From contig CAIPLM010000122.1 in NCBI GenBank assembly GCA_903865895.1, positions 1-51,988 of the forward strand: 51,988 nt of DNA, given 5' to 3'. The stretch comes from an uncultured Rhodospirillales bacterium (lineage in GTDB: Bacteria > Pseudomonadota > Alphaproteobacteria > Acetobacterales > Acetobacteraceae). Shown in pieces: positions 16,034-34,852 of the stretch. The notes beneath the pieces are model-generated. The model searched no databases, was not told the DNA's origin, and was given only the letters and a program-made list of their open reading frames with translations. How positions within the stretch are numbered: the stretch's first letter is position 1; each line of letters opens with the position of its first letter. A program made the position numbers and the translations under genes.

Positions 16034-17572
<1,539 letters not shown>

Positions 17573-17590
17573 GCTGCTATTGTCCGCCGA

Positions 17591-17724: not shown

Positions 17725-17729
17725 ATCCA

Positions 17730-19328
17730 TCAAGCCAGCACAAGATCAGGATACCCCGAGGCCGCCACCTCGTCGCACCAGGCGCGATAGGCCGGCGCGC
17801 TGCCGCTGTAGCGGGCGATGATGCGGGTGGTCTTGCCGTCGACGTTGCTGTTCACCCCGGTGAACCAGGAATCGATCTCATTGGAGAGCAGCCCGGCGCC
17901 GATGGCCCGCACATGGCTCGTCCATTTCGCCACCGCCTCCGGTCGCGGATCGGCGTAGGTGAGGTCCTTCGCCTGCATATGGCCGAGCAGCCCGGTCACC
18001 CAATCCACGTTGTATTCGATGCTCCGAGGGATGTTGCCGAGCGCGGTATGCGGGCCCATCAGCATCATCATGTTGGGGAACCCCTCGACCAGCACACCCA
18101 TGAAAGTCTGCGGCCCCGCCGCCCAGGCATCGCGCAGCGTGCGGCCGCCCTCGCCCCGGAAATCGATCCGCTCGAAGGCCCCGGTGATCGCCATGAAGCC
18201 GGTGGCGTAGATGATGATGTCGAACTCGAACTCCCGATCAGTGGTGCGCAGCCCCGCCTCGGTGATCGCCTCGATCGGCGTCGCCTTGATATCCACCAGT
18301 TCGACATTGGGCTGGTTGTAGACCTCGTAGTAGCGCGTCTCGAGCGGCACGCGGCGGGTGCCGAAGCCGTGGTTCTTCGGGATCAGCTTCTCGGCTGTGG
18401 CCTTGTCATTCACCCGTGCGCGGATTTTGCGCGCGACGAATTCGGTGATCACGGCGTTGGCCGCACGGTCCATCAGGTAGTCACGGAAATTGCCCTGCCA
18501 TATGCCGAAGCCGCGCTCGGAGTAGAGCTTCTCCAGGAAGGCCTCGCGCTCCTCCGGTGTCACTTCAAAGGTGCCGCGCGGATCGGGCGTGTGCAGGAAG
18601 CAGGCGAAAGTCTCCTGGCAGCGGCGGAACATCGCGTCGTAATCGGCCTTGATCGCCGCCATCTCCTGGCCGCTGAGCGGCCCGTTATGCAGCGGCGCGC
18701 ACCAGTTGGGCGTGCGCTGGAACACGGTGAGATGGCCGGCCGTCTTCGCGACCTCCTGGATGGTCTGCACCCCCGAGGAGCCGGTGCCGATCACGGCGAC
18801 GCGCTTGCCGGTGAAATCCACCTTCTCCTTTGGCCACAGCCCGGTATGCGCCTCAAGCCCGCGGAAGCTGCCGACGCCGGCGATGCGCGGCATGGTCGGC
18901 GCCGAGAGCGGGCCGATGGCGGTGATGAGGAAGCGGGCGCGACGCGTGGCGCCGTCCTCGGTGGTCACCGTCCAGGCACCGTCCGCGTAATGCGCGGAGA
19001 CCACGCGGGCGTGGAAGGTGATATCGCGGCGGAGGTCGAACATGTCGGCCATGCGGTTGATATAGCGCTCGGTTTCCGGCTGCCCGGCGAAATGCTCGGA
19101 CCAGTTCCACTCCGCCAGCAGCTCCTTGGAGAAGGAATAGCCGTAGGAGTAGCTCTCGGAATCGAAGCGTGCGCCGGGGTAGCGGTTCCAATACCAGGTG
19201 CCGCCGACTCCGCTGCCGGCCTCCAGGATATGCGCCTTGATGCCCAGCCCGCGTAGCCGGTGCAGCTGATAGAGGCCGGACATGCCGGCGCCGATGATGA
19301 GGGCTTCGTGGTCGAGAGCGGTGGTCAT
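17730..19328 (-). CDS. Flavin-containing monooxygenase, Baeyer-Villiger type
   Basis: A 532-residue FAD- and NADPH-dependent enzyme. FAD motif GAGMSG at 13-18, the Baeyer-Villiger fingerprint FRGLEAHTGLW at 155-165 (FxGxxxHxxxW), and a second dinucleotide motif GTGSSG at 181-186. Such enzymes insert oxygen next to ketones to give esters or lactones. The start is 13 bases after the preceding SDR stop. An SDR that could make the ketone and an HyuAB pair are in the same array, suggesting a catabolic route for a cyclic or ketonic compound; the actual substrate is unknown. Confidence 0.92.
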   Translation of the reverse strand: MTTALDHEALIIGAGMSGLYQLHRLRGLGIKAHILEAGSGVGGTWYWNRYPGARFDSESYSYGYSFSKELLAEWNWSEHFAGQPETERYINRMADMFDLRRDITFHARVVSAHYADGAWTVTTEDGATRRARFLITAIGPLSAPTMPRIAGVGSFRGLEAHTGLWPKEKVDFTGKRVAVIGTGSSGVQTIQEVAKTAGHLTVFQRTPNWCAPLHNGPLSGQEMAAIKADYDAMFRRCQETFACFLHTPDPRGTFEVTPEEREAFLEKLYSERGFGIWQGNFRDYLMDRAANAVITEFVARKIRARVNDKATAEKLIPKNHGFGTRRVPLETRYYEVYNQPNVELVDIKATPIEAITEAGLRTTDREFEFDIIIYATGFMAITGAFERIDFRGEGGRTLRDAWAAGPQTFMGVLVEGFPNMMMLMGPHTALGNIPRSIEYNVDWVTGLLGHMQAKDLTYADPRPEAVAKWTSHVRAIGAGLLSNEIDSWFTGVNSNVDGKTTRIIARYSGSAPAYRAWCDEVAASGYPDLVLA

Positions 19329-19341
19329 GCCTGGCGCTCCT

Positions 19342-20094
19342 TCAGTGGAAAACCCGGCCGGCGTCGATCACGATGGTCTGGCCGGTCATGGTCTCGGTGC
19401 GGCACATCGTCACCACCATATCCGCGCAATCATCCTTGTCGGCGGCCTTCTTCAGCAGCGACGTGGAAGCCGATCGCTCGACCTGCTCGGCGCGCAGATT
19501 GGCCGTCGCCCGCGTGCCCTCCAGCAGGCCCGGAGCCACGCAGTTGACCAGGGTTTCCGGCGCCATGGCGACCGCCATGCAGCGGGTGAGATGGATCAGC
19601 CCGGCCTTGGACACCGCATAGGCGATGGAGGAGCCGGTGGGGGTAAGCCCGGCGACCGAGGAGATATTGACGATCCGCCCGCGCCCCTGCGCCTTCATCA
19701 CCGGCGCCACGGCCTTCATCAGCCGCATCGGGCCGGTGAGGTTGATCGCCATGATCTTGTCCCACAGCGCGTCGGTCATGTCGTCCAGCTCGGGGAAGGG
19801 GATCGCCTTGTTGAAGGCGGCGTCGTTGACGAGGATGTCGATCCGCCCGAAGCGCGCCTGCACGGCGGCCACCAGCGCATCGACGGCGCCGGGCGCCGCG
19901 ATATCGCAGGCGAAGGCCGCGGCCTGCACGCCATGCGTGGCGGCGAGTGTTGCGGCCACCTCCTCCGCCTGGTCGCGGCTTTGCGCGTAGACCACGGCGA
20001 TATGGGCGCCCTCGCGGGCCAGCGCGTGGCAGATGCGCTGGCCGAGACCGCCATTGCCGCCGGTGACCAGGGCGACGCTTCCTGTGAGATCCAT
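19342..20094 (-). CDS. SDR family oxidoreductase
   Basis: A 250-residue classical short-chain dehydrogenase. Cofactor loop TGGNGGLG at 11-18, catalytic Ser145/146, Tyr159 and Lys163 (SSVAGL, AYAVSKAG); the usual NNAG is NDAA here. It lies 13 bases from each neighbour (HyuA upstream, monooxygenase downstream), so is part of the same transcript. Likely interconverts an alcohol and a ketone feeding the Baeyer-Villiger enzyme; this pairing is inference. The C-terminus MTGQTIVIDAGRVFH is typical of FabG-like members. Confidence 0.92.
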   Translation of the reverse strand: MDLTGSVALVTGGNGGLGQRICHALAREGAHIAVVYAQSRDQAEEVAATLAATHGVQAAAFACDIAAPGAVDALVAAVQARFGRIDILVNDAAFNKAIPFPELDDMTDALWDKIMAINLTGPMRLMKAVAPVMKAQGRGRIVNISSVAGLTPTGSSIAYAVSKAGLIHLTRCMAVAMAPETLVNCVAPGLLEGTRATANLRAEQVERSASTSLLKKAADKDDCADMVVTMCRTETMTGQTIVIDAGRVFH

Positions 20095-20107: not shown

Positions 20108-22153
20108 TTATTGCTTGCGCAGGATCAGTGATCCCGCCGGGTGAACTTCCGCCGTCCAGCCCGGCGGCACAAGGGTGGTGGCGTCGAGCTGTGTCACCAC
20201 GGCGGGCCCGGCGAAGCGTGCGCCCGGCGCGAGCCCGGCCCGATCCCGCACCGCGGCCTGCACGGAGCCGGAGGCGAAATGCACGAGGCGGGAGCTGACC
20301 TCCGCCGAGCCTCCCCCGGTGGGCGGCGCCATCACCGGGGCGGGCAGGCGGCCGGTGGCCTCAACCCTCAGCGTCACCAGTTCGACGGCGGCGGCCAGCA
20401 CGAAGCCGTAAAGCGCCTGGTGCGCCGCCTGAAACGCCGAGACCGCCGCCGCGCCATCGCCGGCCCAGGGCAAAGCAAGCTCGCCGCCCTGGCCCTCGTA
20501 GCGCATCAGCGCGACTTCCTCGCAGGCGCGATCCTCGGGGGCGACGCGCTCCTCGTCGAACCAGGTCTCCGCTTCCGCCCGCAATTCCGCGAGAATGGTG
20601 GTGGCGAGCGCGGTATCGGGGGCGCCGGCCACCGGCAGCGCGCGGTGGAATTCCGCCTTGAGGTCGGCCGCCAGCAGCCCCTCGGCGCACAGCACGCCGG
20701 GCGCCGGTGGCACCAGCACGGTGGTGATCCCCAGCAGATCCGCGAGCGCACAGCCATGCAGCGGCCCCGCGCCGCCGAACGGCACCAGGGCGAAATCGCG
20801 CGGATCATGCCCGCGCTCCACCGAGACGACGCGAATAGCGCCGACCATGTTGCTGTCGGCAATCGCCAGGATGCCGCGCGCGGCGGTGTGCAGCTCAAGC
20901 CCGAGCGGCCCGGCGACCTTGGCCTGCACGGCGGCGGCGGCGCGCGCCGGGTCCAGCCGCATCCGCCCGCCCAGGAGTTCCGGCGGTAAATGGCCGAGCA
21001 CGATATGCGCGTCCGTCACCGTCGCCTCGCTGCCGCCCAGCCCGTAGCAGGCCGGCCCGGGGTCCGCCCCCGCGCTCGCCGGCCCGACCGTCAGCGCGCC
21101 ATCGCCGACCCGCGCGATGGAACCGCCGCCGGCGCCCACCGTCACCATGTCCACCATCGGCAGGCTGAGCGGCCATTCGCCCACCTTGCCCTGGCTGGTC
21201 AGGCCGATGCGGCCGTCCTTGATGAGGCAGATATCGGCCGAGGTGCCGCCGATATCGACGGTGATGATGTTGCCGATCCCCGCCGCCGCCGCGACCTCGC
21301 GCGCGCCCACCACCCCGGCCGCCGGGCCGGAGAGCGCCGTCACCGCCGGTGCGCGGCGGATCGCCGAGGCTCCGGCGACGCCGCCATTGGATTGCATCAG
21401 CAGCAGGGGCGCCGTGATGCCGGCCTCGCCGAGCCGGCGTTCCAGCCGCTCCACATAGGTGGAAACCGCCGGCATCACCGAGGCATTGAGGATGGTCACC
21501 AGGCTGCGCTCATATTCGCGCGCCACCGGCAGCACATCCACCGAAGCGGTGACGGCAACCCCAGGCAAAGCCGCGCGCAGCATCTCGGCGACGCGGCGCT
21601 CATGCGCGGGATGGGCGAAGCTGTGCAGCAGGCAGATCGCCACCGAACGCACCGCGAGCCGCCGGCACGCCTCGGCGGCTTCCGTCACACTCGCCTCATC
21701 GAGCGCGGTCAACACCGTGCCGCCGGGGCCGACGCGCTCCACCACCTCCAGCACCCGCTCCGGCGGCACCGGGCGGCGCGGCTTGATCCAGGCGTAGAGA
21801 TTGGCCCGGCGCGGAATATCCTGCCGGCCGATATCGAGCACGTGGCGGAAGCCCTGGGTGGTGATCAGCGCGGTGCGGGCACCCTTGCCCTCCAGGATGA
21901 GGTTGGTGGCGACCGTCGTGCCATGCAGCACCCGCCCGATCGCCGCCTCGCCAACCCCGGCGGCATCGAGCGCCAGGCGCACGCCGGCGAGGAAGGCGAT
22001 CGATGGGTCGGCCGGCGTCGAGGGCGTCTTGGCCCTCCAGGCGCGGCCGGTTGCCGGGTCCTGCAAGGTGATGTCGGTGAAGGTGCCGCCGATATCGACG
22101 GCGACGGAAAACCCGGTCTCAGGCGCCCCCACTTCAAACGATCGCATCGACAT
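20108..22153 (-). CDS. Hydantoinase/oxoprolinase family protein, subunit A (HyuA-like)
   Basis: A 681-residue ATP-dependent subunit of the N-methylhydantoinase / 5-oxoprolinase / acetone and acetophenone carboxylase superfamily. The N-terminal phosphate motif is DIGGTFTD (about 20-27), with the second actin-like motif TVDIGGTSADICL mid-protein and a family C-terminal domain with TRVxxT-style ending. The start codon overlaps the HyuB stop by 20 bases; ATG at 22147 is the alternative. Substrates in the family range from cyclic imides to ketones and cannot be told apart here. Confidence 0.92.
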   Translation of the reverse strand: MSMRSFEVGAPETGFSVAVDIGGTFTDITLQDPATGRAWRAKTPSTPADPSIAFLAGVRLALDAAGVGEAAIGRVLHGTTVATNLILEGKGARTALITTQGFRHVLDIGRQDIPRRANLYAWIKPRRPVPPERVLEVVERVGPGGTVLTALDEASVTEAAEACRRLAVRSVAICLLHSFAHPAHERRVAEMLRAALPGVAVTASVDVLPVAREYERSLVTILNASVMPAVSTYVERLERRLGEAGITAPLLLMQSNGGVAGASAIRRAPAVTALSGPAAGVVGAREVAAAAGIGNIITVDIGGTSADICLIKDGRIGLTSQGKVGEWPLSLPMVDMVTVGAGGGSIARVGDGALTVGPASAGADPGPACYGLGGSEATVTDAHIVLGHLPPELLGGRMRLDPARAAAAVQAKVAGPLGLELHTAARGILAIADSNMVGAIRVVSVERGHDPRDFALVPFGGAGPLHGCALADLLGITTVLVPPAPGVLCAEGLLAADLKAEFHRALPVAGAPDTALATTILAELRAEAETWFDEERVAPEDRACEEVALMRYEGQGGELALPWAGDGAAAVSAFQAAHQALYGFVLAAAVELVTLRVEATGRLPAPVMAPPTGGGSAEVSSRLVHFASGSVQAAVRDRAGLAPGARFAGPAVVTQLDATTLVPPGWTAEVHPAGSLILRKQ

Positions 22154-23891
22154 ACTCCACCCGGTGGAAAGCCCGCGCCTCGGGCCGCATGGCCCTGAGC
22201 GCCGCAGTCATCGCCGCATCGACGGCGCCGTCACGAATGGCGACCCCGTAGTCTTGTTCAGCCGCCGCGAGGGAGACGAACCCGTCCGCCACGTCGCGCA
22301 GCACGTCCTCGGCCGGGCGATCATAGGGATGGCCGTAACCGCCGCCACCGCCGGTGAAGATGCGCAGAATATCGCCCTTCTCCAGCTTGTTACCGTCCGA
22401 CAGCGGTTTCAGCACGCGCTCCCGGTTGGTGCCGGGATTGACGATGGCGCCCCCCACGCCGCCGGACTTGCCGCCCGAAACGCCCCAGGGCGGGTTGGTC
22501 ACGCTATCGATGCGCACCGCGAGTTCGGAGGTATCGGCGAGAATCTCGTATTCCCTGATGATCCCGCAGCCGCCGCGGAACCGCCCGGGCCCACCCGAAT
22601 CGCGGTTCACCCCATAGGTGGTCAGCCGCACGGGGTAGCCGAGTTCGAGGAACTCGACGGGGTAGTTCTCCTGCGCCACGAAATACACGGTATCGATGCC
22701 ATCCGCGGTGGGCCGCGCGCCGTAACCGACGCCGAGCCCGTCGGACATCAGGAACGGCTTGCCCTCGGCCAGCCCGCGCAGAAGCATGATCACATAGGCC
22801 GAATGCGCCGCCGGCGCCGGGGTGCCGGCGACGTTGATCAGGCCGTTGAGGGTCGCGAGCATGCGCATCATCGTCATGCCCCGCATCCCCAGCGGCGCCG
22901 GGAAGCGCGGCCGCAGCACGGAGCCTTCGCGCAGGATCACCTCGTCGAGCGCCCGCGGCCCGCCGGCGTTGCACACCTGCGCCGGATCGCCGCCGATGAA
23001 GTAGAGGCCGAGCGCCATGCCCGGCACATCCTTGTTCATCAGGAAGTTGACCGGCCCCTTGGTCTGATCGTCGGACTCGGAGGTATCGAGGATGAAGCGG
23101 TCATCCGCGGTGCGGGTGAGAGCGAAGCGCAGCTTCACCGGGCCGGAGCCATGGCCGTCAGTATCCAGCGCATCGGTGAAGCGATGGGTGCCGACCGGGA
23201 AGGTCTCCTTCAGCTTCGCGCGCACCAGCGATTTCGTGCGCTCGAACAACTGGCCCAACGCATCGGCCAGCACCGGAGGCCCGAAGCGGCCGGCGATCTC
23301 CTGCATGCGGCGAATGCCGAGTTCCACGCTGGCCATCAGGGCGCGGGTATCGCCCCGGCAGGTCGCGGGGTAGCGGGAGTTGCGGTAGAAAATCTCCAGC
23401 GTCGCCTCATTGGTGACGCCCTGGTCGATCAGCTTGGTTGGCGGGATGATGATGCCTTCCTGGAAGATGTCGGTGGCATCGGGCGAGATGGAGCCGGGGC
23501 GGATGCCGCCGATATCGGAGAAATGCGCCCAGGCCATCACGAAGGCGACGCGCTTGCCCTCGTGGAAAACCGGGGCGAGGAACACCTGGTCATTGGAATG
23601 CGATACCGCGCCACGGCTGCCGTAGCAGTCATTATACCAGTAGAGATCGCCGGGCTTGATGGTCTCGATCGGGAATTTCTCGAAGACCGGTCCGCAGATA
23701 TCCCCGAACACCGGCACGTTGGAGCCGACCGTCATCACCCCTTCGGAGTCGAACAAGGCGGTATAGAAGTCCTTCTTCTCGCGGATGAAGGCGGAGATCG
23801 CGGTGCGCTCGATCAGCGCCTCCATCTCCGCCTGCGCCGCCCGGATCGCGCCGCGGATGATTTCCAGCGTCACCGGATCGCATTTCGTCAT
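22134..23891 (-). CDS. Hydantoinase B/oxoprolinase family protein (HyuB-like)
   Basis: A 585-residue catalytic partner of the HyuA-like protein. It begins with the family signature DPVTLEIIRGAI and retains the Asn/Ser/Asp-rich central blocks (YNDCYGSRGAVSHSNDQVF, AHFSDIGG) and the Gly-rich end (GDILRIFTGGGGGYGHPYDR). The start at 23891 overlaps the upstream ATPase stop as ATGA with a GGGAG site, overruling the longer frame. HyuA plus HyuB hydrolyse an amide ring or carboxylate a ketone at the cost of ATP. Confidence 0.93.
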   Translation of the reverse strand: MTKCDPVTLEIIRGAIRAAQAEMEALIERTAISAFIREKKDFYTALFDSEGVMTVGSNVPVFGDICGPVFEKFPIETIKPGDLYWYNDCYGSRGAVSHSNDQVFLAPVFHEGKRVAFVMAWAHFSDIGGIRPGSISPDATDIFQEGIIIPPTKLIDQGVTNEATLEIFYRNSRYPATCRGDTRALMASVELGIRRMQEIAGRFGPPVLADALGQLFERTKSLVRAKLKETFPVGTHRFTDALDTDGHGSGPVKLRFALTRTADDRFILDTSESDDQTKGPVNFLMNKDVPGMALGLYFIGGDPAQVCNAGGPRALDEVILREGSVLRPRFPAPLGMRGMTMMRMLATLNGLINVAGTPAPAAHSAYVIMLLRGLAEGKPFLMSDGLGVGYGARPTADGIDTVYFVAQENYPVEFLELGYPVRLTTYGVNRDSGGPGRFRGGCGIIREYEILADTSELAVRIDSVTNPPWGVSGGKSGGVGGAIVNPGTNRERVLKPLSDGNKLEKGDILRIFTGGGGGYGHPYDRPAEDVLRDVADGFVSLAAAEQDYGVAIRDGAVDAAMTAALRAMRPEARAFHRVEYVDAIV

Positions 23892-24841
23892 GCCTCGTCT
23901 CCCAGATGGCAAGCCAGTTTCCGGCCCTCGCCGATGTTACGCAATGGCGGCGCCTCAGCCGCGCACCGGTCGAAGGCCAGCGGGCAGCGGTCGCGGAAGG
24001 CGCAGCCGGGGCCGCTGAGCGGCGCGTCCGACAATGCGCCCTTGATGGGCAGCGGCGCGCGGTCCTGCATCACATGCGGCACTGGCACCGCGGCGACCAG
24101 CGCCTTGGTATAGGGGTGGCGCGGCCGCTCGATCAGCGCTGGCGTCGGCCCTTCCTCGACCACGCGGCCGAGATACATCACCAGCGTGCGCTCGCAGACG
24201 TAGCGGATCAGCGCGAGATCGTGGCTGATATAGATGGCCGCCAAGCCCAGCTCGTCGCGGGCCGCGCGCAGCAGATTGAGGATGCCGGCCCGGACGGAGA
24301 CATCGAGCATCGAAACCGGCTCGTCAGCCACGATCAGCTTCGGCCCCGGCAGCAGCGAGCGTGCCAGAACCACGCGCTGCAATTGCCCGCCGGAGAGCTC
24401 ATGGGGATGCCGGTCGAGCCAATCGGCGGCGGGGGTGAGCCGCACCCGCGCCATCGCCGCGGCGATCCGCGCTTCATGCTCGGATTTCGCCACCCCGAAA
24501 TTGCGCAACGGCTCGGCGAGCGAGCGGCCGATGGTGAAGCGGGGGTTCAGCGCGTCGAACGGGTTCTGGAACACCAGCTGCGCCTTGGCGCGAAACGCCA
24601 GCAAGGCGGCGCCGCGCGTGGCGGTGATGTCCGTCCCCTCGAAGGTGATGCGCCCCGCCGTCGGGTCCTCCAGCCGCAGCAGCATCCGCGCCGTGGTCGT
24701 CTTGCCACACCCGCTCTCGCCGACAATGCCGAGCGCCTCGCCGGCAGATACCGCGAGCGATACGCCGCGCACCGCATGCACGGTCCGCCCGCCGACATGG
24801 AAGGTCTTTTCGAGGTTCTCGGCTGAAATGACGGCGCTCAT
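23888..24841 (-). CDS. Oligopeptide/dipeptide ABC transporter ATP-binding protein, DppF-like
   Basis: A 317-residue ATPase. Walker A GESGCGKT at 41-48, signature LSGGQLQR, Walker B LIVADEPVSMLD, and the C-terminal oligo/dipeptide extension with Cys-rich GCAFRDRCPLAFDRC. It overlaps both neighbours by ATGA. Together with the next ATPase it would energise the transporter whose permeases are at 25943-27767. Confidence 0.94.
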   Translation of the reverse strand: MSAVISAENLEKTFHVGGRTVHAVRGVSLAVSAGEALGIVGESGCGKTTTARMLLRLEDPTAGRITFEGTDITATRGAALLAFRAKAQLVFQNPFDALNPRFTIGRSLAEPLRNFGVAKSEHEARIAAAMARVRLTPAADWLDRHPHELSGGQLQRVVLARSLLPGPKLIVADEPVSMLDVSVRAGILNLLRAARDELGLAAIYISHDLALIRYVCERTLVMYLGRVVEEGPTPALIERPRHPYTKALVAAVPVPHVMQDRAPLPIKGALSDAPLSGPGCAFRDRCPLAFDRCAAEAPPLRNIGEGRKLACHLGDEA

Positions 24842-25830
24842 CCCGCCCCCCAGGTCGCCGGCAGCGCGGCGGCCGCGCGCAGGGCGGGGGCCTCGGCGGC
24901 ACGGAAACAGGCGACGCCGGCTTCCAGCACCGGCGTCTCGGTGTGGCAGCGTGGCTGGGCGAAGGGGCAGCGGGGCGCGAAGCGGCAGCCGGGCTTGGGG
25001 TTGATCAGCACCGGGGGCGCGCCGTCGATCGGCACCAGCTCGCCGGTGCCGCCATGCACGTCGGGGAAGGCGTGGGTGAGGCCCATGGTGTAGGGGTGGC
25101 GCGGGCGCTCCAGCACGTCGGCGGCGAGGCCGGATTCGACGATCCGCCCGGCATACATCACCGCCACCCGGTCACACGCATAGGCCACCACCGCCATGTC
25201 ATGCGTCACCAGGATCATCGCGAGGCCGAGACGGGCTTGCAGATCGCGCATCACGTCCAGCACCTGGCGCTGCACGATCACGTCGAGCGCCGTCACCGGC
25301 TCGTCGGCGATCACCAGCGCCGGGTCGAGCGCCAAGGCGAGCGCGATCGAGGCGCGCTGGCGCATGCCGCCGGAGAATTGGTGCGGGTAATCGGCGAGGC
25401 GCGCGGGGTCGAGCCCGACCATGCGGAACAGCTCCTCGGCGCGGGCCGAAGCCGCCGCGCGGCCGAGCCCGCCGCGCTCGATCAGCACCTCCAGCATCTG
25501 CGCGCGCAGGCGCAGCACCGGGTCCAGCGCGTTCATCGCGGTTTGCGGGATGAAGGACATGCGGCGCCAGCGTACGTCGCGCCGGGCGCGCGCGGAGAGG
25601 CCCAGCAAATCCCGCCCCTCGAACACCGCCGAACCGCCGGCGATGCGCGCGGCATCCGGCAGCACGCCCATCAACCCGCGCCCGAGCGTGGACTTGCCGC
25701 AGCCGCTTTCACCCACCAGGCCGGTGATGGAACCGGCCGGCACATCGAGATCCACCCCATCCACCGCCCTGACGATGCCGGCGCGCGAGGCGTAGTGGAC
25801 CTGGAAATCGCGGAGCTGAAGGAGCGTCAT
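24838..25830 (-). CDS. Oligopeptide/dipeptide ABC transporter ATP-binding protein, DppD-like
   Basis: A 330-residue ATPase. Walker A GESGCGKS at 40-47, signature FSGGMRQR, Walker B LVIADEPVTALD, and C-terminal Cys cluster CRFAPRCPFAQPRC typical of the DppD/OppD group. The ribosome site is not obvious; the 112-base gap to the upstream permease holds repeat family B copy 1, which may interrupt or punctuate the operon. It overlaps DppF-like by ATGA. Confidence 0.94.
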   Translation of the reverse strand: MTLLQLRDFQVHYASRAGIVRAVDGVDLDVPAGSITGLVGESGCGKSTLGRGLMGVLPDAARIAGGSAVFEGRDLLGLSARARRDVRWRRMSFIPQTAMNALDPVLRLRAQMLEVLIERGGLGRAAASARAEELFRMVGLDPARLADYPHQFSGGMRQRASIALALALDPALVIADEPVTALDVIVQRQVLDVMRDLQARLGLAMILVTHDMAVVAYACDRVAVMYAGRIVESGLAADVLERPRHPYTMGLTHAFPDVHGGTGELVPIDGAPPVLINPKPGCRFAPRCPFAQPRCHTETPVLEAGVACFRAAEAPALRAAAALPATWGAG

Positions 25831-25942: not shown

Positions 25943-26794
25943 TCACGAGCCACCCAGTTTCGGGAACAGCAGCTTCTCCGAGCCACGCGAAATCATGAAC
26001 CCGGCCAGCGCCATCGCCAGGATGGCGGCGCCGGGGGGCACGAACCAGTTCCAGGCACCGCGCGACAGCGCCTGGTTGGCGTAGGCGTCCTGCAACATCA
26101 CGCCCCAGGAAATCGTCGCCGGATCGCCGAAGCCGAGGAAGGAGGCCGCGGCCTCGGCGAGGATGGCCCAGCCGATCGCCACCGATCCGTAGAGCGCGGC
26201 CAGCGGCAGCACCTGCGGCAGGATGTGCACGAACATGATCCGCGCGTTGGAACACCCGGTCACCCGCGCCGCCTCCACCCAGGCGCGCTCGCGCAAGGAG
26301 AGCACCTGGGAGCGGATCACCCGCGCGGTATTCGGCCACAGCAGAGCGGCGACGGTGCAGACCACGGTGAGCGTGCCGGGCCGGGTGAGCGCCGCCAGCA
26401 CCAGCATGGAGGGCAGGAAGGGCAGGCCGAGCACGATATCGGCCAGCCGCGTCACCGCCTTGTCCACCCAGCCGCCGAGATAGCCGGCGAGCAGCCCGAG
26501 CAGGGTGCCGATCGCCACCACCGCGACGGCGGCGGTGAGCCCCACCTGCAGCGCGGTGCGGGCGCCGTGGATCAGTTGGCTCGCGATGTCGTAGCCGCTC
26601 GAGGTGGTGCCAAGCCAGAAATCGGCGGAGGCCGGCATGTAGCGGGCGATGCGGCGATTGGCGCGCAGGATCTCGGTCGGGCTATGCGGCGCGATGCGCT
26701 CGGCGAGCAAGGCGGCGGCGATGATCACCGCGTAGATCGCCGCCCCCGCCACCGCGAAGGGCTCGGAGCGCAGGAAGCGGAGGAGGCTACGCAC
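25943..26794 (-). CDS. Oligopeptide/dipeptide ABC transporter permease, DppC-like
   Basis: A 283-residue permease with about six helices and the loop VEAARVTGCSNARIMFVHIL. I prefer a GTG start at 26794, which overlaps the upstream stop by 8 bases and has GGTGGG before it; the ATG at 26830 gives an overlap of 44 bases and no ribosome site. The N-terminus (SLLRFLRSEPFAVAGAAIYA) then matches typical DppC layout. Part of the receptor-DppB-DppC-DppD-DppF set. Confidence 0.9.
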   Translation of the reverse strand: MRSLLRFLRSEPFAVAGAAIYAVIIAAALLAERIAPHSPTEILRANRRIARYMPASADFWLGTTSSGYDIASQLIHGARTALQVGLTAAVAVVAIGTLLGLLAGYLGGWVDKAVTRLADIVLGLPFLPSMLVLAALTRPGTLTVVCTVAALLWPNTARVIRSQVLSLRERAWVEAARVTGCSNARIMFVHILPQVLPLAALYGSVAIGWAILAEAAASFLGFGDPATISWGVMLQDAYANQALSRGAWNWFVPPGAAILAMALAGFMISRGSEKLLFPKLGGS

Positions 26795-27767
26795 GGCGGC
26801 CCACCGAAACCCGCGGATCGAGCGCGGCATAGGCCATGTCGGCGACCGTGTTCATCACCACCAGCACGAAGGCGATCATGATGAAGGCGCCCTGGGCCAG
26901 CGGGTAGTCGGAGGATTGCACGGCGCCGACCAGCACGCGGCCGATGCCGGGCCAGGCGAACACCGTCTCGATCACCACATTGCCGCCGATTGAGGCGCCG
27001 AGCCCGAGGGCAAAGGCGGTCACCACCGGCAGCAGCGCGTTGCGCGCGGCGTGGCGCATCACGATTGACCAGCGCGAGAGCCCCTTCATCTTGGCCATGG
27101 TGATGAACTCGTCGTTCAGCACCTCCAGCATGGTGGCGCGCATCAACAGCAGAGGCAGGCCCTGGAGGAATAGGGTGAGCGTCAGCGCGGGCAGGCAGAG
27201 GTGCCACCAGAAATCGGCCGAGGTCAGCCGCTCGGTGAGCGTGCCCATGCTGCCGCCCGGGCTTACCGCGCCGCCGGTGGGGAACCAGCCGAACTGGAAG
27301 GCGAACACCGCCAGCAGCAGCATGCCGAGCCAGAATTCCGGTGCGGCGCGGGTGGCGAGCGCGGTCGGGATCATCACCCCCTCCAGCACCGAGCCGCGGC
27401 GGAAGGCGAGAAAGGCGCCAACCACGATGCCGATCGCATAGGCCAGCACCAGGGAGACCACCGTCAGCACCGCCGTATTCGGAAGCGCGTCCCACAGCAG
27501 CCGGCTGACCGGCTGGTTCTGCAGGAAGGACATGCCGAAATCGCCCTGCACGAGCTGCCAGAGGTAGATCAAATATTGCTGCCACAATGGCTTATCGAGC
27601 CCGAAGCTCGCCATCAGCGCGGCGCGGGTTTCCTCGTTGAAGGTGGGCGAGAGGAAATTCAACGTCGGGTCGCCGGGCATCAGGCGGAACATCAGGAACG
27701 TCAGGCTGGCCACCACCCACAGCACGAGCAGGAGATGGCCGAGGCGTTCGAGCAGCAGGCGCCTCAT
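26787..27767 (-). CDS. Oligopeptide/dipeptide ABC transporter permease, DppB-like
   Basis: A 326-residue permease beginning MRRLLLERLGHLLLVLWVVA, with the family RLMPGDP motif and the EAA-like loop LNDEFITMAKMKGLSRWSIV. The open frame continues upstream into repeat family A copy 3, but that part is repeat-derived (LLLFSKRSPSFP), so I start at 27767. No convincing ribosome site precedes it; the repeat ends 13 bases before the ATG. Confidence 0.92.
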   Translation of the reverse strand: MRRLLLERLGHLLLVLWVVASLTFLMFRLMPGDPTLNFLSPTFNEETRAALMASFGLDKPLWQQYLIYLWQLVQGDFGMSFLQNQPVSRLLWDALPNTAVLTVVSLVLAYAIGIVVGAFLAFRRGSVLEGVMIPTALATRAAPEFWLGMLLLAVFAFQFGWFPTGGAVSPGGSMGTLTERLTSADFWWHLCLPALTLTLFLQGLPLLLMRATMLEVLNDEFITMAKMKGLSRWSIVMRHAARNALLPVVTAFALGLGASIGGNVVIETVFAWPGIGRVLVGAVQSSDYPLAQGAFIMIAFVLVVMNTVADMAYAALDPRVSVGRRA

Positions 27768-27921: not shown

Positions 27922-29592
27922 TCAATTAAACGGCGCCGTGCTCTCCTTCACCCCCGCGGGATAGTGCAGTTTGCCGCCGACCAGCACGAAGCCGGCATCC
28001 TTCAGCATTTTCTGCGCCGCTTCCAGGCTGCCCGCACCCGGCACCCGGTTGACGATCCCGGGCGAGGTCCAGGCGGCCAGCGCCGGGGAGACCCAGGAAT
28101 TGGCCGGCTCGGCAGCACCACCCCAGGCGTCCTCCGCCAGCAACTGGCGGTCGATCATCGCCGAGAGGGCGCGGCGGAAGCCCTTATTGTCGAAGGGCGG
28201 GCGGCGTTCGTTGTAGCCGAGGAATTTGAAGCCGATGTCGAGCGCCTCGGAGATCACGATGTTCGGGTTGGCCTTGGCGAGGTCGCGCAGGATCTGCGGG
28301 TCACCCGTGTAGTCCGCCAGGAAGTTGATTTCGCCCGATTTCAACGCGCCGAGGGCGGCCTCCACGTTGGGCATGATGCGCATGATCCAGCGGTTCACCT
28401 TGGGCTTGGACCAATGGCTCGGGTTGGCCTCCAGCACGATCTCCTGGTTCAGCGCCGCCTTGACGATGCGGAACGGCCCGGAGCCGACCGGCTTCTCCTC
28501 CTGGATTCTCTCGGCGGTCTGCGGCTTGTTCTTCAAGTCCTCGAAGATCGGCGCCCAGATGTGTTTGGGCGCGAGGTTGAGCTTGGCCAGCGAGGAGATC
28601 AGGAAGGCCGCGTCGGGGTTCTTCAGCTTGATGGTCAGCGTGTCAGGCCCGGTGGTGGTCACGCTCTCGATGTTGCGCACGAAGGGCTTGTACATCGGTG
28701 CTTTGTCGGCATAGCCCGGGGCTTCGAGGCTGAACACGGCGTCCTCGATGGTCACCGGCTTGCCGTCGGACCAGGTCATGCCCTTGCGCAGCGTCACCAG
28801 CACGGTGAGCGGATCGGGGCGTTCCACCTTCTCGGCGGCCCAAGGCTGCGGCAGCCCGTCGGGACCGACGCGCATCAGCCGGTCCCACACCATCTCGGTC
28901 GCCCAGGAGCCCTGCTGGCCCGGGATGTTGAAGGGGTTGAGTTCGGTAGGCGGCGCCACCGAATTCAGGATCACGTCCTTCTGCGCGCCGAGCGGCGCCA
29001 CGTTCAGCCAGGACCAGGTGGAGCGGATGCCGATGCCGGCCTGGGCGACGAAGCTCTTCTCGTCCCAGACCGATTTGTTGAAGGCGACCACGTTCTTCGG
29101 GTGCACCATGAAGCCGTAGGGCTGGTCCTCGTTGATCATTTCCTGCGCTTGCAGGACGAGGGCCTTGCGCTTCTCGAAATTCAGCTCCTGGCGCTGCGCC
29201 TGGGCCAGCGCGTCATAGGCCGGGTTCATGTAGCCCACGAAGTCATACCCGTTGGCCGCGTTGGCGGAGACGAACAGATTGTAGGTCAGTTCATCCGGGT
29301 CACCGCGCTCGGGGCGGCCAACCATCTGCCAGGTCGTGACATCCCAGCGCTGGCGCTCGTACCACACCACCTGGGTGAATTGCTGGCCGGGCAGCGGGCG
29401 GAGGTTCACGGTGAGGCCGAGTTTGCGCCAGGCATCGGCGATGATCTGTGCCGCCTGATACTCGCGCGGGTCTGCCGCCTGTGGCTGGGTGACGATGGTG
29501 AGCGGACGGATCGGGTCACCCGCTGTCTGCGCAAGTGCCACTCCCGGTAGAACAGCCGCCGTCAACGCGAGCAAAGATCGCCACATCGCCAT
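27922..29592 (-). CDS. ABC transporter substrate-binding protein, family 5, with circularly permuted domain order
   Basis: A 556-residue periplasmic receptor. Residues 1-22 look like a Sec signal (MWRSLLALTAAVLPGVALAQ). Residues 29-176 match what is normally the C-terminal lobe of family-5 receptors: AQIIADAWRKLGLTV, then GRPERGDPDEL, GYMNPAYDAL, KRKALVLQAQEM and NEDQPY. Residues 205-549 then carry the normal N-terminal part: NPFNIPGQQG, VWDRLMRVGPDGLPQPWAAE, RKGMTWSDGKPVTIEDAVFS, then PVGSGPFRI and finally LKDAGFVLVGGKLHYPAGVK, where ordinary proteins would enter the C-lobe. Start: ATG at 29592 or 29586, after AGGGGG. Probable receptor for the Dpp-type transporter downstream; repeat copy 3 begins 4 bases after the stop. 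Confidence 0.88.
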   Translation of the reverse strand: MAMWRSLLALTAAVLPGVALAQTAGDPIRPLTIVTQPQAADPREYQAAQIIADAWRKLGLTVNLRPLPGQQFTQVVWYERQRWDVTTWQMVGRPERGDPDELTYNLFVSANAANGYDFVGYMNPAYDALAQAQRQELNFEKRKALVLQAQEMINEDQPYGFMVHPKNVVAFNKSVWDEKSFVAQAGIGIRSTWSWLNVAPLGAQKDVILNSVAPPTELNPFNIPGQQGSWATEMVWDRLMRVGPDGLPQPWAAEKVERPDPLTVLVTLRKGMTWSDGKPVTIEDAVFSLEAPGYADKAPMYKPFVRNIESVTTTGPDTLTIKLKNPDAAFLISSLAKLNLAPKHIWAPIFEDLKNKPQTAERIQEEKPVGSGPFRIVKAALNQEIVLEANPSHWSKPKVNRWIMRIMPNVEAALGALKSGEINFLADYTGDPQILRDLAKANPNIVISEALDIGFKFLGYNERRPPFDNKGFRRALSAMIDRQLLAEDAWGGAAEPANSWVSPALAAWTSPGIVNRVPGAGSLEAAQKMLKDAGFVLVGGKLHYPAGVKESTAPFN

Positions 29593-29619
29593 AGCCCCCT
29601 GGTTTGATGTCTTGCGGCC

Positions 29620-29649
29620 ATTGAACGGGCGATTGCCGATGGGTTCAAG
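29620..29649. promoter_or_regulatory. Symmetric divergent promoter/operator candidate
   Basis: TTGAAC at 29621-29626 and GTTCAA at 29643-29648 are inverted halves 16 bases apart. Read on the minus strand they give TTGAAC-N17-TTCAAT, a reasonable promoter ending about 28 bases before the receptor ATG. Read on the plus strand they give TTGAAC-N17-TTCAAG, towards the M28 peptidase gene. The same symmetry could also be a regulator's operator, perhaps for the Crp/Fnr protein encoded two genes on. Confidence 0.45.
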
Positions 29650-29712
29650 GGGGCACTTGCCTCCAAGTGGCATCGGTGATGCCATCCCGCCCGAATCTCC
29701 CAGGAGCCTCCG

Positions 29713-31452
29713 ATGACCATCACCGCAGCCGAGCAGTACTTCCTCGACGATGTCAGCCTCGACATGCCCTGGGCGCTGGTCGAGACCTTCGCGACCCTGC
29801 ATCGCTGGATGCCCGAGGATGTGAACAAGGCGGCCGATGTCATCGTCTCCCGCCTGCGCGCCGCCGGCGTGCCGGTGGAGGTGCATCAGCCGGAGATCTA
29901 CCTCTCCATCCCGCTCAAGGCCTCGGTAACGGCGGAGAATATCGCCTATCGCGCCAAGCCGCCCTCCTCTTCGCTGCCGGCGCCGGACGGGGTGACCGGC
30001 AAGCTGGTCTTCCTGAAGGCCAATCCGAAGGCGCTGCGCAGCTACAACCGCGACGTGAAGACCCTGTTCGGCGGCTCCATCGCCTCGGTGGCCGAGGTGA
30101 AGCGGATCGTCGGCGGCAACATCGTGGTGATGCAGGGCTTCGGCAATCCGGCGCTGACCAGCCTGATCGAGGAATGGGGCGGCATCGGGCTGATCGCGGT
30201 CAACCCCGGGATCGATATCCACTGGGGCACCTGCACCACCATCTGGGGCTCGCCCGATCTGCAGGACATGGGGCGCAAGCCGAAAATCCCGGTGATCGCG
30301 GTCAACAACCCCGATGGGCAGAAGCTGATGGCGCTCGCCCAGTCCGGCGGCGAGGCGACCATCCGCACCGATCTGCTGGAGGGATGGTTCGCGCAGAAAA
30401 TCCCGGTCGTCACCATCCCCGGCACCGATGAGCCGGAGAAATACGCGCTGGTGCACGGCCATTACGACAGCTGGGAAGTCGGCGTCGGCGACAACGCCAC
30501 GGGCGACGCCACGCTCATGGAGCTCGCCCGCGTGCTGTGGAAGAACCGCGCGAACCTCAAGCGCTCCGTGAAGATCGCCTGGTGGCCCGGCCATTCCACC
30601 GGCCGCTACGCCGGCTCCACTTGGTTCACCGACGCCTTCGCGCTCGATCTCGACCGCAATTGCCTCGCCCAGATCAACTGCGACAGCCCCGGCTGCCGCT
30701 GGGCGACCTCGTATCACGACACCCGTGCTTTCTCGGAAAGCGCCCATATCGCGGCTGACGCCATCCGCGACATCGTGCCATCAGCCGCGATCGCCACCCA
30801 TCGTCCGCCCCAGGCCGGCGACTACAGCTTCAACAACATCGGCTTGCCGAGCTTCTTCATGCTGTCCTCGACGATGCCCGACGCGCTGCGGGCCGAGAAA
30901 GGCTACTACGACGTGTCGGGCTGCGGGGCGAACATCGCCTGGCACACCGAGAACGACACGCTGGAAATCGCCGATCCCGCCAACCTGCTGACCGACATGA
31001 AGATTTATCTTCTCTCGGTGCTGCGCGTCGCCAATGCCGAGCTGCTGCCGTTCGACTGGCAGGCGACGTGCGACGAATTCACCGCCACCATCGACGGCTA
31101 CCAGAAAGCCGCCGGCGCGCTGGCCGACTTGTCGCCCTCGCGCAACGCCGTGGCTGCGCTGAAATCCGCCCTCGGCGCGCTCGACCAGGCGCCGATCGCC
31201 GCGCAGAACCGCGCCCGCCACGCCCTCGCCCGCGTGCTGGTGCCGATCAACTACACTAACCAGCCGCGCTTCCGGCATGATCCGGCCTATACCGTGCAGC
31301 CGCTGCCCACGCTGGCGGTGGCCGCCGATCTCGCTGACATGACGGATGATCACCTCCGCCGCGTCGCCGGTGTGGAGCTGATGCGCGGGCAGAACCGGCT
31401 TCTGGCCGCCCTCGATCAGGCCCGCCGCATCGTCGAAGCCGAGGCTGGCTGA
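29713..31452 (+). CDS. M28 family (PA-domain) metallopeptidase-like protein
   Basis: A 579-residue protein with a protease-associated domain (about 95-225) inserted before the peptidase core. The first metal motif HGHYDSW is at 248-254 and the second GDNATGDA at 259-266. The region expected to carry the catalytic Glu pair reads WWPGHSTGRYAGSTW (290-304), with Gly-His in place of Glu-Glu, so the mechanism or activity may differ. No signal peptide, so cytoplasmic. AGGAG 6 bases before the ATG. Divergent from the peptide-type receptor, so may process the imported compound. A Crp/Fnr gene follows after 4 bases. Confidence 0.88.
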   Translation: MTITAAEQYFLDDVSLDMPWALVETFATLHRWMPEDVNKAADVIVSRLRAAGVPVEVHQPEIYLSIPLKASVTAENIAYRAKPPSSSLPAPDGVTGKLVFLKANPKALRSYNRDVKTLFGGSIASVAEVKRIVGGNIVVMQGFGNPALTSLIEEWGGIGLIAVNPGIDIHWGTCTTIWGSPDLQDMGRKPKIPVIAVNNPDGQKLMALAQSGGEATIRTDLLEGWFAQKIPVVTIPGTDEPEKYALVHGHYDSWEVGVGDNATGDATLMELARVLWKNRANLKRSVKIAWWPGHSTGRYAGSTWFTDAFALDLDRNCLAQINCDSPGCRWATSYHDTRAFSESAHIAADAIRDIVPSAAIATHRPPQAGDYSFNNIGLPSFFMLSSTMPDALRAEKGYYDVSGCGANIAWHTENDTLEIADPANLLTDMKIYLLSVLRVANAELLPFDWQATCDEFTATIDGYQKAAGALADLSPSRNAVAALKSALGALDQAPIAAQNRARHALARVLVPINYTNQPRFRHDPAYTVQPLPTLAVAADLADMTDDHLRRVAGVELMRGQNRLLAALDQARRIVEAEAG

Positions 31453-31456
31453 GCCC

Positions 31457-32161
31457 ATGCGCGCCCCCCGGATCGATGCCCGCATGCGGCGGGACGCGCT
31501 GCTCGCCAGCCCCTTCTTCCACCCGATGCAGCCGGCGGAGATCGACGAGATTCTGTCCTTCGCCGTCGAGCGCCGCTTCCCCCGCGGGGCGGCGATCTAC
31601 GCCAAGGGCGATCCCGGCAGCAGCATGATGGCGGTGCTGGCCGGCCGCCTACGCATCACCAGCGCCACCCCCGAGGGCAAGGAGGTGACGCTCAACACCA
31701 TCGGTCCCGGCGAAATTGTCGGCGAAATCGCCCTGCTCGACGGCAAGCCGCGCAGTGCGGACGTGGTGGCCGCCGAGGACACCACGGTGCTGGTGATCGA
31801 GCGCGCCGATTTCCTGCCCTTCCTGCTGCGCCACCCCGTGCTGGTGGAGGCGACGCTGGCGGTGCTGTGCGAGCGCCTGCGCAGCACCAGCCTGGCGCTG
31901 GAGGAGATCGCGCTGTTCGATCTCACCGCCCGCCTCGCCCGCCTCATCACCAAGCTCGCCATTGATTACGGCCGGCCGGCGGAGGAGGGGGTGCGGATCG
32001 AGCTGAAGCTCTCGCAGTCCGACCTTGCGGCGCTGGTCGCCAGCTCGCGCGAAAGCGTCAACAAGCAGCTGGCGCAATGGCGCAGCGCTGGGCTGATCGG
32101 CACCGATGCCGGGCACATCACGGTGCTGCAACCGCAGGCGCTGCGGGCGCTGTGCCCGTGA
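31457..32161 (+). CDS. Crp/Fnr family transcriptional regulator
   Basis: A 234-residue regulator: N-terminal cyclic-nucleotide-binding fold with the phosphate cassette [15 protein letters not shown] (about 93-107) and C-terminal winged helix ([21 protein letters not shown]). No Cys cluster of an Fnr oxygen sensor is visible, and the cassette has the Arg expected for nucleotide binding. It starts 4 bases after the M28 gene and precedes the homogentisate genes by about 100 bases, so may control either. Confidence 0.92.
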
Positions 32162-32267
32162 GACGCGATGCGGCGCGCGCCGCGGTGTCGTAGAGTTCCC
32201 GGCCGCACGGCGGCGCGCTTCCTTCCCTGCCTCCCCCAGCCTAAACTCCCGCCAAGGGAGAAACCGC

Positions 32268-33560
32268 ATGGACAGCATCACCGGGACAGACCTCGCCACG
32301 CTTTCTGGCTTCGGCAACGAGTTCGCCACCGAGGCGATCCCCGGCGCCTTGCCGCAGGGCCGCAATTCGCCGCAGCGCCCGGCGCACGGGCTGTACGCCG
32401 AGCAGTTCTCCGCCACCGCCTTCACCGTGCCGCGCCGGGAGAACCGGCGCACCTGGCTCTACCGCATCCGCCCCTCAGCCAACCATCCGCCCTATGCCAA
32501 GATCGATCGCGGCCGTTTCGGCGGGCCGCTCGGCACGCCCAACCCCAATCGCCTGCGCTGGAATCCGCCGCCGCTGCCCGATGCGCCCACGGATTTTGTC
32601 GCCGGCCTCACCACCATGGCCGCCAATGCCGAGGGCGCCTATGGCGTCGGCGTCAGCGTGCATGTCTACGCCGCCAACCGCTCCATGCAGCGCGTGTTCT
32701 GGAACGCCGATGGCGAGATGCTGATCGTGCCGCAGCAGGGGCGCCTGTTGCTCTCCACCGAGTTGGGCCGCCTGCTGGTGGCGCCCAATGAAATCGCGGT
32801 CATCCCCCGCGGCATCCGCTTCCGCGTCGAACTGCCGGACGGCGCGGCGCGCGGCTATGTCTGCGAGAACCACGGGGCGACCTTCCGCCTGCCCGATCTC
32901 GGCCCGATCGGTGCCAATGGGCTGGCCAACCCGCGTGACTTCCTCACCCCCGTCGCCTGGTTCGAGGATTGCGACGCGCCGACCGAGGTGGTGCAGAAAT
33001 TCCTTGGCGAGCTCTGGGCCACGACGCTCGACCACTCGCCGCTCGATGTCGTCGCCTGGCACGGCAACTGCGCGCCGTACAAGTACGACCTCGCCAATTT
33101 CATGGCGATCGGCACGGTGAGCTTCGACCACCCGGACCCCTCGATCTTCACCGTGCTCACCGCGCCGACCGAGACGCCGGGCCGCGCCAATTGCGATTTC
33201 GTGATTTTCCCGCCGCGCTGGATGGTCGCCGAGGATACGTTCCGCCCGCCCTGGTTCCATCGCAACATCATGAACGAGTGCATGGGCCTGGTCGGCGGCG
33301 TGTATGACGGCAAGGCCGAGGGGTTCCTGCCCGGCGGGCTCAGCCTGCACGGGCTGATGAGCGCCCATGGGCCGGACAAGCCGACCACCGAGCGTGCCAT
33401 GGCCGCCGAGCTCGCGCCGCACAAGATCGCCGGCACGCTGGCCTTCATGTTCGAGACCAATCAGGTGTTGATGCCCAGCCGCCACGCGATGGGCTGCGCC
33501 GAGTTGCAATCCGGTTATGACGCCGTGTGGAACGGCCTTGGAAAGATGTTTGCGACATGA
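32268..33560 (+). CDS. hmgA: Homogentisate 1,2-dioxygenase
   Basis: A 430-residue iron enzyme opening homogentisate to maleylacetoacetate in tyrosine/phenylalanine breakdown. The Fe ligands of the human enzyme (His335, Glu341, His371) correspond to His331, Glu337 and His367 ([18 protein letters not shown]). N-terminus [19 protein letters not shown] is typical. The start at 32268 follows AAGGGAGA. It overlaps the next gene by ATGA. The intermediate isomerase gene (maiA) is not in the window. Confidence 0.97.
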
Positions 33561-34852
33561 TCGACCATACGCACGAAGCCGCCGCCAGCTGGGTCGCCAG
33601 CGCCAACGGCCACGCGGATTTCCCGCTGCAGAACCTGCCGCACGGTGTGTTCAGCACCGCCGGTGGCGGCCGTACCGGGGGCGTTGCCATCGGCGACAAG
33701 ATCCTCGACCTTGCGGCGGCGCTCTCCGCCGGCCTGCTCGACGGCGCGGAAGCTGAGGCCGCGGCGGCCGGCAGCCTCAACGGCTTCCTCGCCCTCGGCG
33801 CCGCCGGCCGCACGGCGCTGCGCCATCGCCTCTTCGCCCTGCTCTCGGCCGAGGCCGCGCCCGCCATCCAAGCGCGGGCCGCCGCCTGCCTGGTGGATGC
33901 CGCCGATTGCGCCCTGCACGTGCCGGCCGCGATCGGCGACTACACCGATTTCTTCTCGGGCATCCACCACGCGATGAACGGCGGCAAGCTGCTGCGGCCG
34001 GACAACCCGCTGATGCCGAACTACAAATACGTCCCCGTCGCCTATCACGGCCGCGCTTCCTCGATCCGCCCCTCGGGCCACCCGGTCAGCCGCCCCAACG
34101 GCCAGCGCAAGCGCCCGGACGAGGCGGCGCCCAGCTTCGGCCCCTGCCGCAACCTCGATTACGAGATGGAATTCGGCATCTGGGTCGGCGGCGCCAACGC
34201 CCTTGGCGACACTGTGCCGATCGCGCAGGCTGGCGAGCACATCGCCGGGTTCTGCCTGCTCAATGACTGGTCGGCGCGCGATATCCAGACCTGGGAATCC
34301 GCCCCGCTCGGCCCCTTTCTGGCCAAGAGCTTCCAGACCTCGATCTCCCCCTGGATCGTCACCGCCGAAGCCCTCGCCCCCTTCCGCATCCCCCAGCCGC
34401 CCCGCCCCAACGGCGATCCGGCCCCCCTGCCGCATTTGTTCGATGCCGCGGACCAGGCTGCCGGCGCGCTGGATATCGCCGTCGAGGTCCATATCCTCAC
34501 CCCCCAGATGCGCGCGGCGGGCCTGCAGCCGCACCGCCTCTCCCGCGCCAACACGTCGGACCTCTACTGGACGGTCGCGCAAATGCTCGCCCACCACACC
34601 TCCAACGGCTGCAACCTCTCCGCGGGCGATCTCTTCGGCTCCGGCACCATTTCCGCCGTAGAGGATACCGGGTGGGGCAGCCTGCAGGAGCTCAGCCTCG
34701 CCGGCCGCCGCGAGCTCACCCTGCCCAATGGTGAGACCCGGATGTTCCTCGCCGATGGTGACGAAATCACCTTCCGTGCCCATGCCGCGCGTGACGGCTA
34801 CGCCACCATTGGTTTCGGCCCGTGCCGCGGGGCGGTTCTGCCGGCGCAGTGA
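33557..34852 (+). CDS. fahA: Fumarylacetoacetase
   Basis: A 431-residue hydrolase for the last step of the homogentisate route, giving fumarate and acetoacetate. N-terminal SH3-like domain, then the catalytic FAH fold with [16 protein letters not shown] (catalytic His, metal Asp), [16 protein letters not shown] and the metal-binding [11 protein letters not shown]. The start overlaps the hmgA stop (ATGA at 33557-33560), so the two are translationally coupled. Confidence 0.97.

Follow-up and report, generated by a model that had tools for sequence, protein, structure and literature searches.

The DNA analysed here, called the window in the following, is a stretch of 51,988 nucleotides (contig CAIPLM010000122.1, positions 1 to 51,988) from an uncultured Rhodospirillales bacterium of the family Acetobacteraceae. 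It contains a gene which a sequence-only reading had described as encoding a family-5 binding protein with circularly permuted halves. The position of the open reading frame at 27922-29592 was given correctly, the strand had to be corrected to minus. The gene is the first of an operon and is followed by Dpp/Opp-type transporter genes (two permeases, two ATPases) and then by those of hydantoinase B and A. The protein (556 amino acids, P0001 in our searches) and its neighbours are arranged as follows:

27922..29592, minus strand: gene of the permuted family-5 solute-binding protein, 556 aa, ATG at 29592, stop ending at 27922
29530..29592, minus strand: putative signal peptide, residues 1-21, judged by eye from the sequence
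28993..29526, minus strand: residues 23-200, corresponding to the last quarter of normal proteins (second part of lobe 2 and, after it, the tail of lobe 1 that is C-terminal there), from Pfam, PDB, half-HMMs and the MppA alignment
28981..28995, minus strand: joint of the former C-terminus with the former mature N-terminus, about residues 200-204, from the half-HMM limits and the alignment
27925..28980, minus strand: residues 205-556, the normal N-terminal three quarters, ending with AGFVLVGGKLHYP and 11 residues in the cut loop, from Pfam, PDB, half-HMMs, alignment and end motif
29089..29094, minus strand: crossing from lobe 2 to lobe 1, residues 167-168 (MppA 507-508), by alignment, with lobe limits from an excerpt of PMC6022919
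28243..28248, minus strand: crossing from lobe 1 to lobe 2, residues 449-450 (MppA 286-287), by alignment, with lobe limits from the same excerpt
26787..27767, minus strand: ABC permease of the DppB/OppB type (ATG at 27767; TTG reading from 27830), NCBIfam Opp2B 279.8 bits on the longer reading, cut-off 350
25943..26830, minus strand: ABC permease of the DppC/OppC type, NCBIfam Opp4C 220.3 bits, cut-off 350
24838..25830, minus strand: ABC ATP-binding protein of the OppD/DppD type, NCBIfam PRK09473 273.9 bits, cut-off 575
23888..24841, minus strand: ABC ATP-binding protein of the DppF/OppF type, NCBIfam PRK11308 316.9 bits, cut-off 408
22134..23912, minus strand: hydantoinase B/oxoprolinase (from TTG, overlapping the ATPase gene), PF02538 427.9 bits
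20108..22153, minus strand: hydantoinase A/oxoprolinase, PF01968 302.1 bits, PF05378 163.3 bits
29713..31452, plus strand: M28 family peptidase, divergent and upstream, by eye without a signal peptide, PF04389 54.8 bits, a conserved neighbour

The four transporter genes were assigned by homology, all with scores under the curated equivalog cut-offs. A second ATG of the binding protein gene, at 29586, is more favourably spaced from an AGGGGG stretch and could be the actual start. Scanning 29500-29800 for promoters and terminators gave no match.

Downstream of the hydantoinase genes (14350-20094, minus strand) are genes for a short-chain dehydrogenase, a flavin-dependent oxidoreductase, an aromatic amino acid lyase and urocanase. 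Such a histidine-utilisation-like set beside hydantoinase genes might point to the hydantoin-propionate branch. A second ABC importer is found near the urocanase gene, with a family-3 solute-binding protein (12137-13054, minus strand) and a binding-protein-dependent permease (10829-11848, minus strand). On the other side (31457-34852, plus strand) a Crp/Fnr-type regulator, scoring under the curated cut-offs, is accompanied by the genes of homogentisate dioxygenase and fumarylacetoacetase, a tyrosine-degradation set.

SBP_bac_5 (PF00496) was the only Pfam family with a significant match to the window protein, in two stretches with 219.7 bits in all (cut-off 32.4). Residues 248-541 correspond to positions 2-284 of the 368 profile positions and residues 29-113 to positions 287-367, i.e. 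the halves match parts of the profile that complement and adjoin each other, with their order exchanged, just as had been proposed for this gene. The two parts adjoin with nothing plainly lost or repeated, in agreement with the earlier statement that no part is missing or doubled. Aligned separately, a check suggested beforehand, the piece 203-556 reached 196.1 bits (E 1.2e-57, positions 2-284) and the piece 1-202 29.7 bits (E 4.8e-7, positions 287-367), the latter a modest score under the curated whole-protein cut-off of 32.4. Residues 29-113 thereby fall on the C-terminal part of SBP_bac_5, the point at which the proposed permutation could have failed.

A search of PDB sequences with the piece 22-200 gave the same picture. 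Among 21 distinct sequences at E<=1, four of them without any stretch passing alone, the best stretch was C-terminal in all 21 and began at residue 328 or later (best match 5f1q, 386-506, E 9e-6). The best PDB alignment of the whole protein was to AppA (1xoc), in which residues 206-536 lie on 23-345 and residues 47-174 on 376-498. In the comparison of the family profile with AppA, the N-like part lies on chain residues 19-349 with 231.6 bits. The C-like part, on chain residues 359-497, scored 63.0 bits (i-Evalue 1.5e-16), a signal far above chance. AlphaFold2, run on the window protein and five of the eight related MAG loci described below (L009, 97% identical, the broken L015 and the fragment L016 were left out), gave a model of low confidence with these six sequences (pLDDT 40.1, pTM 0.29). 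According to HMMs of the separate halves, the C half stops at residue 193 and the N half begins at 203, and the former termini are fused within about ten residues.

The site of the cut was deduced from the alignment to E. coli MppA, whose lobes comprise residues 23-284 plus 509-537 and residues 288-501, with hinge residues 286-287 and 507-508 (excerpt of PMC6022919). On this map the chain is interrupted midway through lobe 2: G534 corresponds to MppA 372 and L31 to MppA 378, and the cut falls between them. According to the earlier description, the chain stopped exactly at the passage of normal proteins into the C-lobe; this did not hold, since the cut sits inside lobe 2 and the crossings are at residues 449-450 and 167-168. 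Judging from this alignment, lobe 1 of the window protein would be one continuous segment of about 169-448, and lobe 2, which contains both termini, would consist of two segments, about 27-166 and about 450-556. This would be the reverse of normal cluster C proteins, in which lobe 1 is discontinuous and lobe 2 continuous. The lobes would be connected by two crossings in permuted as in normal proteins.

The chain end is uniform. In 34 of the 35 family members aligned it carries a motif of the type [AS]G[FYW]...[LM]...P followed by 1-34 residues, and six members end one residue past the [AS]G[FYW]...P motif; the exception without the motif is L069. The nearest normal-order relatives, L076, L156 and L157 (from Meiothermus, Cytobacillus and Paracoccaceae plasmids), L158 and L003, possess an uncut loop at the cut site, reading AGFIDKDGDGFREDQEGKKIDL / AGFIDKDGDGFREDQEGKKIDLTTL in L156 and AGFSKGADGKWRLPDGQPWQVTI in L003.

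The supposition that the protein belongs to a conserved subfamily was confirmed by full-length homologues with the same order, found in 35 of 35 rows of alignment A1. This alignment of the window protein and 34 relatives (18-90% identical) from alphaproteobacteria and haloarchaea runs from end to end and has 12 invariant columns. Its 35 rows are chosen full-length sequences; fragments and frame-broken matches (L015, L016, L034, L044, L045, L062 and others), near-duplicates and L103_2, the second frame of one locus, were dropped. With N-half and C-half HMMs built solely from 13 normal-order proteins, the C half was detected before the N half in every one of the 35 members (24.5-92.3 bits for the C half, 166.6-260.6 bits for the N half). 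Left-one-out controls showed N before C in 13 of 13 normal-order proteins; as these had been chosen as best non-permuted matches, the controls check the order obtained by the method and are no survey. The permuted order was also seen in the divergent L068 and L094, kept outside A1 and used in half-HMM scoring and trees only; their C halves scored weakly (23.0 and 15.5 bits). PF00496 matches all 35 members at E<=0.001. Since profile positions 287-367 precede 2-284 and 35 of 35 members are permuted, we regard the window protein as a permuted variant and not as an ordinary member of SBP_bac_5.

The genome itself contains many ordinary family-5 proteins and, by family HMM search, one permuted. The family HMM found 81 places at E<=1e-30, with a full-length match to this gene only (821.7 bits); the second-best place reached 181.6 bits at positions 213-540. 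Of 29 normal loci of this genome, seven of which also contributed to the half-HMMs, 28 showed N before C, and L110 had a C half below 10 bits.

Co-linear relatives were present at eight loci of named alphaproteobacterial MAGs with 69-97% identity, one being a fragment and one broken over two frames. Whole-genome searches covered the phylum of the window, and in most genomes just three or four candidates scored. Within the family, 32 of 299 genomes matched at E<=1e-70, a count that includes the own genome and some fragmentary matches; within the class, the number was 14 of 385, both at E<=1e-40 and with the family HMM at E<=1e-90, again counting the own genome. A draw of 398 genomes from the phylum gave a single match, the own genome, both with P0001 at 1e-40 and with the family HMM at 1e-90. 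The archaeal relatives come from a plasmid collection (72,556 records) alone, in which 21 records matched P0001 at E<=1e-30, all 21 with at least 80% query cover in one place. These were from Roseomonas, Neorhizobium, Microvirga, Nitratireductor, Ketogulonicigenium, Maritalea and, at 26-31% identity, haloarchaea. A haloarchaeal query detected 61 records of this collection at E<=1e-25, 19 of them with at least 80% cover. At least one of these 61, the weaker match L074 (H61), has the normal order. No relative was found in viral contigs searched with P0001.

Some genomes carry more than one permuted gene. Plasmid pOM-1 of Nitratireductor sp. OM-1 contains two divergent permuted paralogues (L047 and L069), and genome G341 contains another such pair (L056 and L094). 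In L055 and L070 an additional segment, some tens of residues long, separates the signal region from the core. The permuted genes at L015 and L044 (and L034), in draft genomes, run over two frames or are interrupted by a stop, which suggests decay or sequencing errors.

The transporter genes are largely retained next to the permuted genes. By comparison with the window's proteins, 35 of 42 flanked loci have a DppB-like permease gene in the same orientation no more than 4 kb downstream. The remaining seven are L009 and L015 (none found), L014 (contig end), L128, L129, L135 (other strand) and L071, which had no binding protein anchor in the neighbour search, though permeases are annotated there. 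The divergent M28 gene was found within 4 kb in 20 of the 24 closer loci (about 45% identity or more), counting L124 with 30% identity only, L015 with short pieces only and L047 with two genes between; it was absent from L012, L121, L128 and L129. Hydantoinase B is encoded downstream in 15 of these 24 loci, some of which end earlier, and in none of nine archaeal loci. At the haloarchaeal locus L072 an annotated divergent M28 gene adjoins, without a match to the window's M28 at E<=1e-8; other archaeal neighbours are genes for M81, M20, creatininase, D-aminoacylase and dipeptide epimerase. L009 (match at 1676-3343) is a 97% identical copy accompanied by M28, whose downstream region of about 7 kb gave no matches to the transporter proteins of the window. 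The same MAG holds a second copy, L013, with the full operon.

In DppA, R383 holds the carboxyl end and D436 the amino end of the dipeptide, and the double exchange R383D+D436R abolishes binding (excerpt of PMC12136057). Both positions are located in the part that is N-terminal in the permuted protein. They align with Q38 and R93 of the window protein, with gaps at both places that leave the exact partner unsure. The D436 column contains Arg in 25 of 37 permuted rows and the R383 column Gln in 20 of 37. R96, three columns past the D436 column, is Arg in 30 of 37 permuted rows (seven gaps) and in 1 of 38 normal rows. Residues 93-96 of P0001 (RPER, 29305-29316) include a two-residue insertion, the R96 of which is almost confined to the permuted proteins among the rows compared. 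The permuted L052 retains the Asp of DppA; several others, L053, L072 and L073 among them, lack both Asp and Arg at this position and have gaps nearby. The pattern of these columns may, as a first lead, count against DppA-like dipeptide binding in the window's subfamily. Because the D436 column is Arg here and hydantoinase/oxoprolinase and M28 genes accompany the transporter, the ligand could be a small amide, acidic or N-blocked (of the 5-oxoproline, hydantoin or N-acyl/N-carbamoyl type), or else something peptide-like, which we propose with much less confidence than the fold.

A pattern search detected a lipobox-like L(A/S)GC near the N-terminus in all nine archaeal members of A1 and in none of the 26 bacterial ones. 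The archaeal proteins would thus probably carry their lipid tether on lobe 2 instead of lobe 1. Tethering was discussed as a possible reason for the topology of Tp0684, a permuted binding protein of Treponema pallidum (excerpt of PMC4990184). As the bacterial members lack a lipobox, tethering cannot explain the topology of the present family entirely.

The permuted proteins formed one clade in a tree of 37 permuted and 38 normal rows in common order, from which the cut loop and the joint were left out (support 99/93, ultrafast bootstrap/SH-aLRT). One order change was found in 100% of 200 bootstrap trees of these 75 rows. The normal rows were 29 proteins of the own genome and nine from plasmid records only, and the program marked ten terminal branches as long and nine rows as unusual in letter composition. 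Earlier quick trees supported the permuted clade with 97 (loop included) and 92 (loop left out). The clade groups with the normal-order L076, L156, L157, L158 and L003 (99/93), the exact sister being weakly supported (L076, L156 and L157 with the permuted clade only 54/14). Since the permuted proteins are one clade, a single ancient circular permutation is likely and would be the simplest reading. Tandem duplication followed by trimming is an established route to circular permutation. It was presumably taken here, too; no intermediate was seen among the sequences compared. The presence of permuted proteins in both haloarchaea and alphaproteobacteria implies either cross-domain transfer or great age of the permutation.

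We conclude, with a probability of about 90%, that the gene encodes the binding protein of a Dpp/Opp-like ABC importer, permuted, most likely once, from a normal-order ancestor. In this ancestor the N- and C-termini, both in lobe 1, would have been fused, a new break opened in a helix-strand loop of lobe 2, and an export signal placed at the new N-terminus. The permuted chain should fold into the ordinary bilobed clamp, close in Venus-flytrap fashion and feed the adjacent permeases and ATPases. As had been suggested beforehand, a receptor rewired in this way might differ in how it closes or docks. The imported compound would then be processed in the cytosol by hydantoinase/oxoprolinase and the M28 peptidase.

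Alternatively it might be that the C-terminal binding protein fragment of one gene was fused before the N-terminal fragment of another, both complementing each other. A similar possibility was raised for the permuted part of Tp0684 (excerpt of PMC4990184). Trees of the separate halves are poorly resolved, with one change and a support of 32 for the N half and two changes for the C half, so that they do not independently show a common parent of both halves. Nevertheless, the halves are complementary almost to the residue (profile 2-284 and 287-367), and similarities to the window protein are seen in both halves of L076, L156 and L157: a GxGI stretch is located near the true C-terminus in these proteins and just before the internal joint in the window protein, and P-x(4)-[AT]-A is found just past the cut. 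A chimera with exactly such ends is possible but needs more steps, and we consider this origin unlikely.

A domain-swapped dimer, in which the two parts of lobe 2 come from different chains, is conceivable with both termini in lobe 2, and no direct point speaks for it. Cluster C binding proteins are generally monomeric, and we judge an exchange of this kind very improbable.

The best stretches of Pfam and NCBIfam models cover the C-terminal two thirds of the permuted protein only, and single-sequence family searches, too, show mainly this region, as would be expected of an unrelated N-terminal domain before a truncated normal-order protein. We rejected this explanation as scarcely credible because Pfam, all 21 PDB sequences and, in 35 of 35 members, the C-half HMM place the N-terminal piece itself on the C-terminal region of binding proteins. 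An artefact of assembly or frameshift, or a dead gene, might be suspected in an assembly of 392 contigs with some frame-broken relatives (L015, L044), but is practically eliminated by co-linear open homologues in many independent assemblies, including plasmid records labelled complete sequence, by the 12 columns invariant over 35 sequences, and by the order kept in 35 of 35 members against 13 of 13 normal controls, which rules out an assembly accident.

A single permutation of a Dpp/Opp-type binding protein being the preferred reading, the closest known case is Tp0684 (MglB-2), a natural circularly permuted ABC ligand-binding protein proposed as 'Type Ic / Cluster Bc', which binds ligand, changes conformation and shares its topology with homologues in other bacteria (excerpt of PMC4990184). 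Tp0684 and the window protein are alike in being naturally occurring permutations of ABC-type binding proteins. According to the same excerpt, Tp0684 is a sugar-binding protein of cluster B (type I), in which the strands of the N lobe are reordered and a fourth hinge crossing is needed. The window protein, in contrast, is of cluster C / family 5, with the break in lobe 2 and two crossings by alignment, and its significant Pfam matches and listed PDB matches are of the family-5 type and not of the type I fold with permuted N lobe that defines cluster Bc. It is homologous in both halves, along their length, to AppA (1xoc) and to E. coli DppA, OppA and MppA, which belong to the same operon type and differ in the order of the halves.

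An assignment as DppA equivalog was rejected (NF043070 81.1 bits, cut-off 1005; R383/D436 replaced by Q38/R93), as was one as nickel-binding NikA (NF045468 116.8 bits, cut-off 600; TIGR02294 82.7 bits, cut-off 393). There is no NCBIfam model whose cut-off the window protein passes. Among the best 60 of 112 PDB sequences matching the family profile at E<=1e-10, none had a best stretch extending through both halves, i.e. no solved member was found there. Natural permutation of a binding protein is already known from the cluster B protein Tp0684 (PMC4990184); for a cluster C family, no precedent was found among the matches listed from the open PMC literature.

As a tentative proposal, which we hold to be rather doubtful as a whole, these proteins could be regarded as a class 'cluster Cc'. 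In this class an ancient permutation would have made lobe 1 continuous and moved the chain ends and the archaeal tether to lobe 2, changing the tethering of the clamp and its presentation to the permeases. Ligands may have shifted from peptides to N-blocked or acidic amides, and the class may have spread between haloarchaea and alphaproteobacteria together with its own transporter genes.

Where plasmid records are annotated, the permuted proteins are named plain ABC transporter substrate-binding proteins, which is of relevance for annotation. A conserved permuted cluster C family occurring in both domains would be a natural experiment on whether closure, tethering and docking depend on the connectivity of a hinge protein, because normal-order relatives with the uncut loop still exist.
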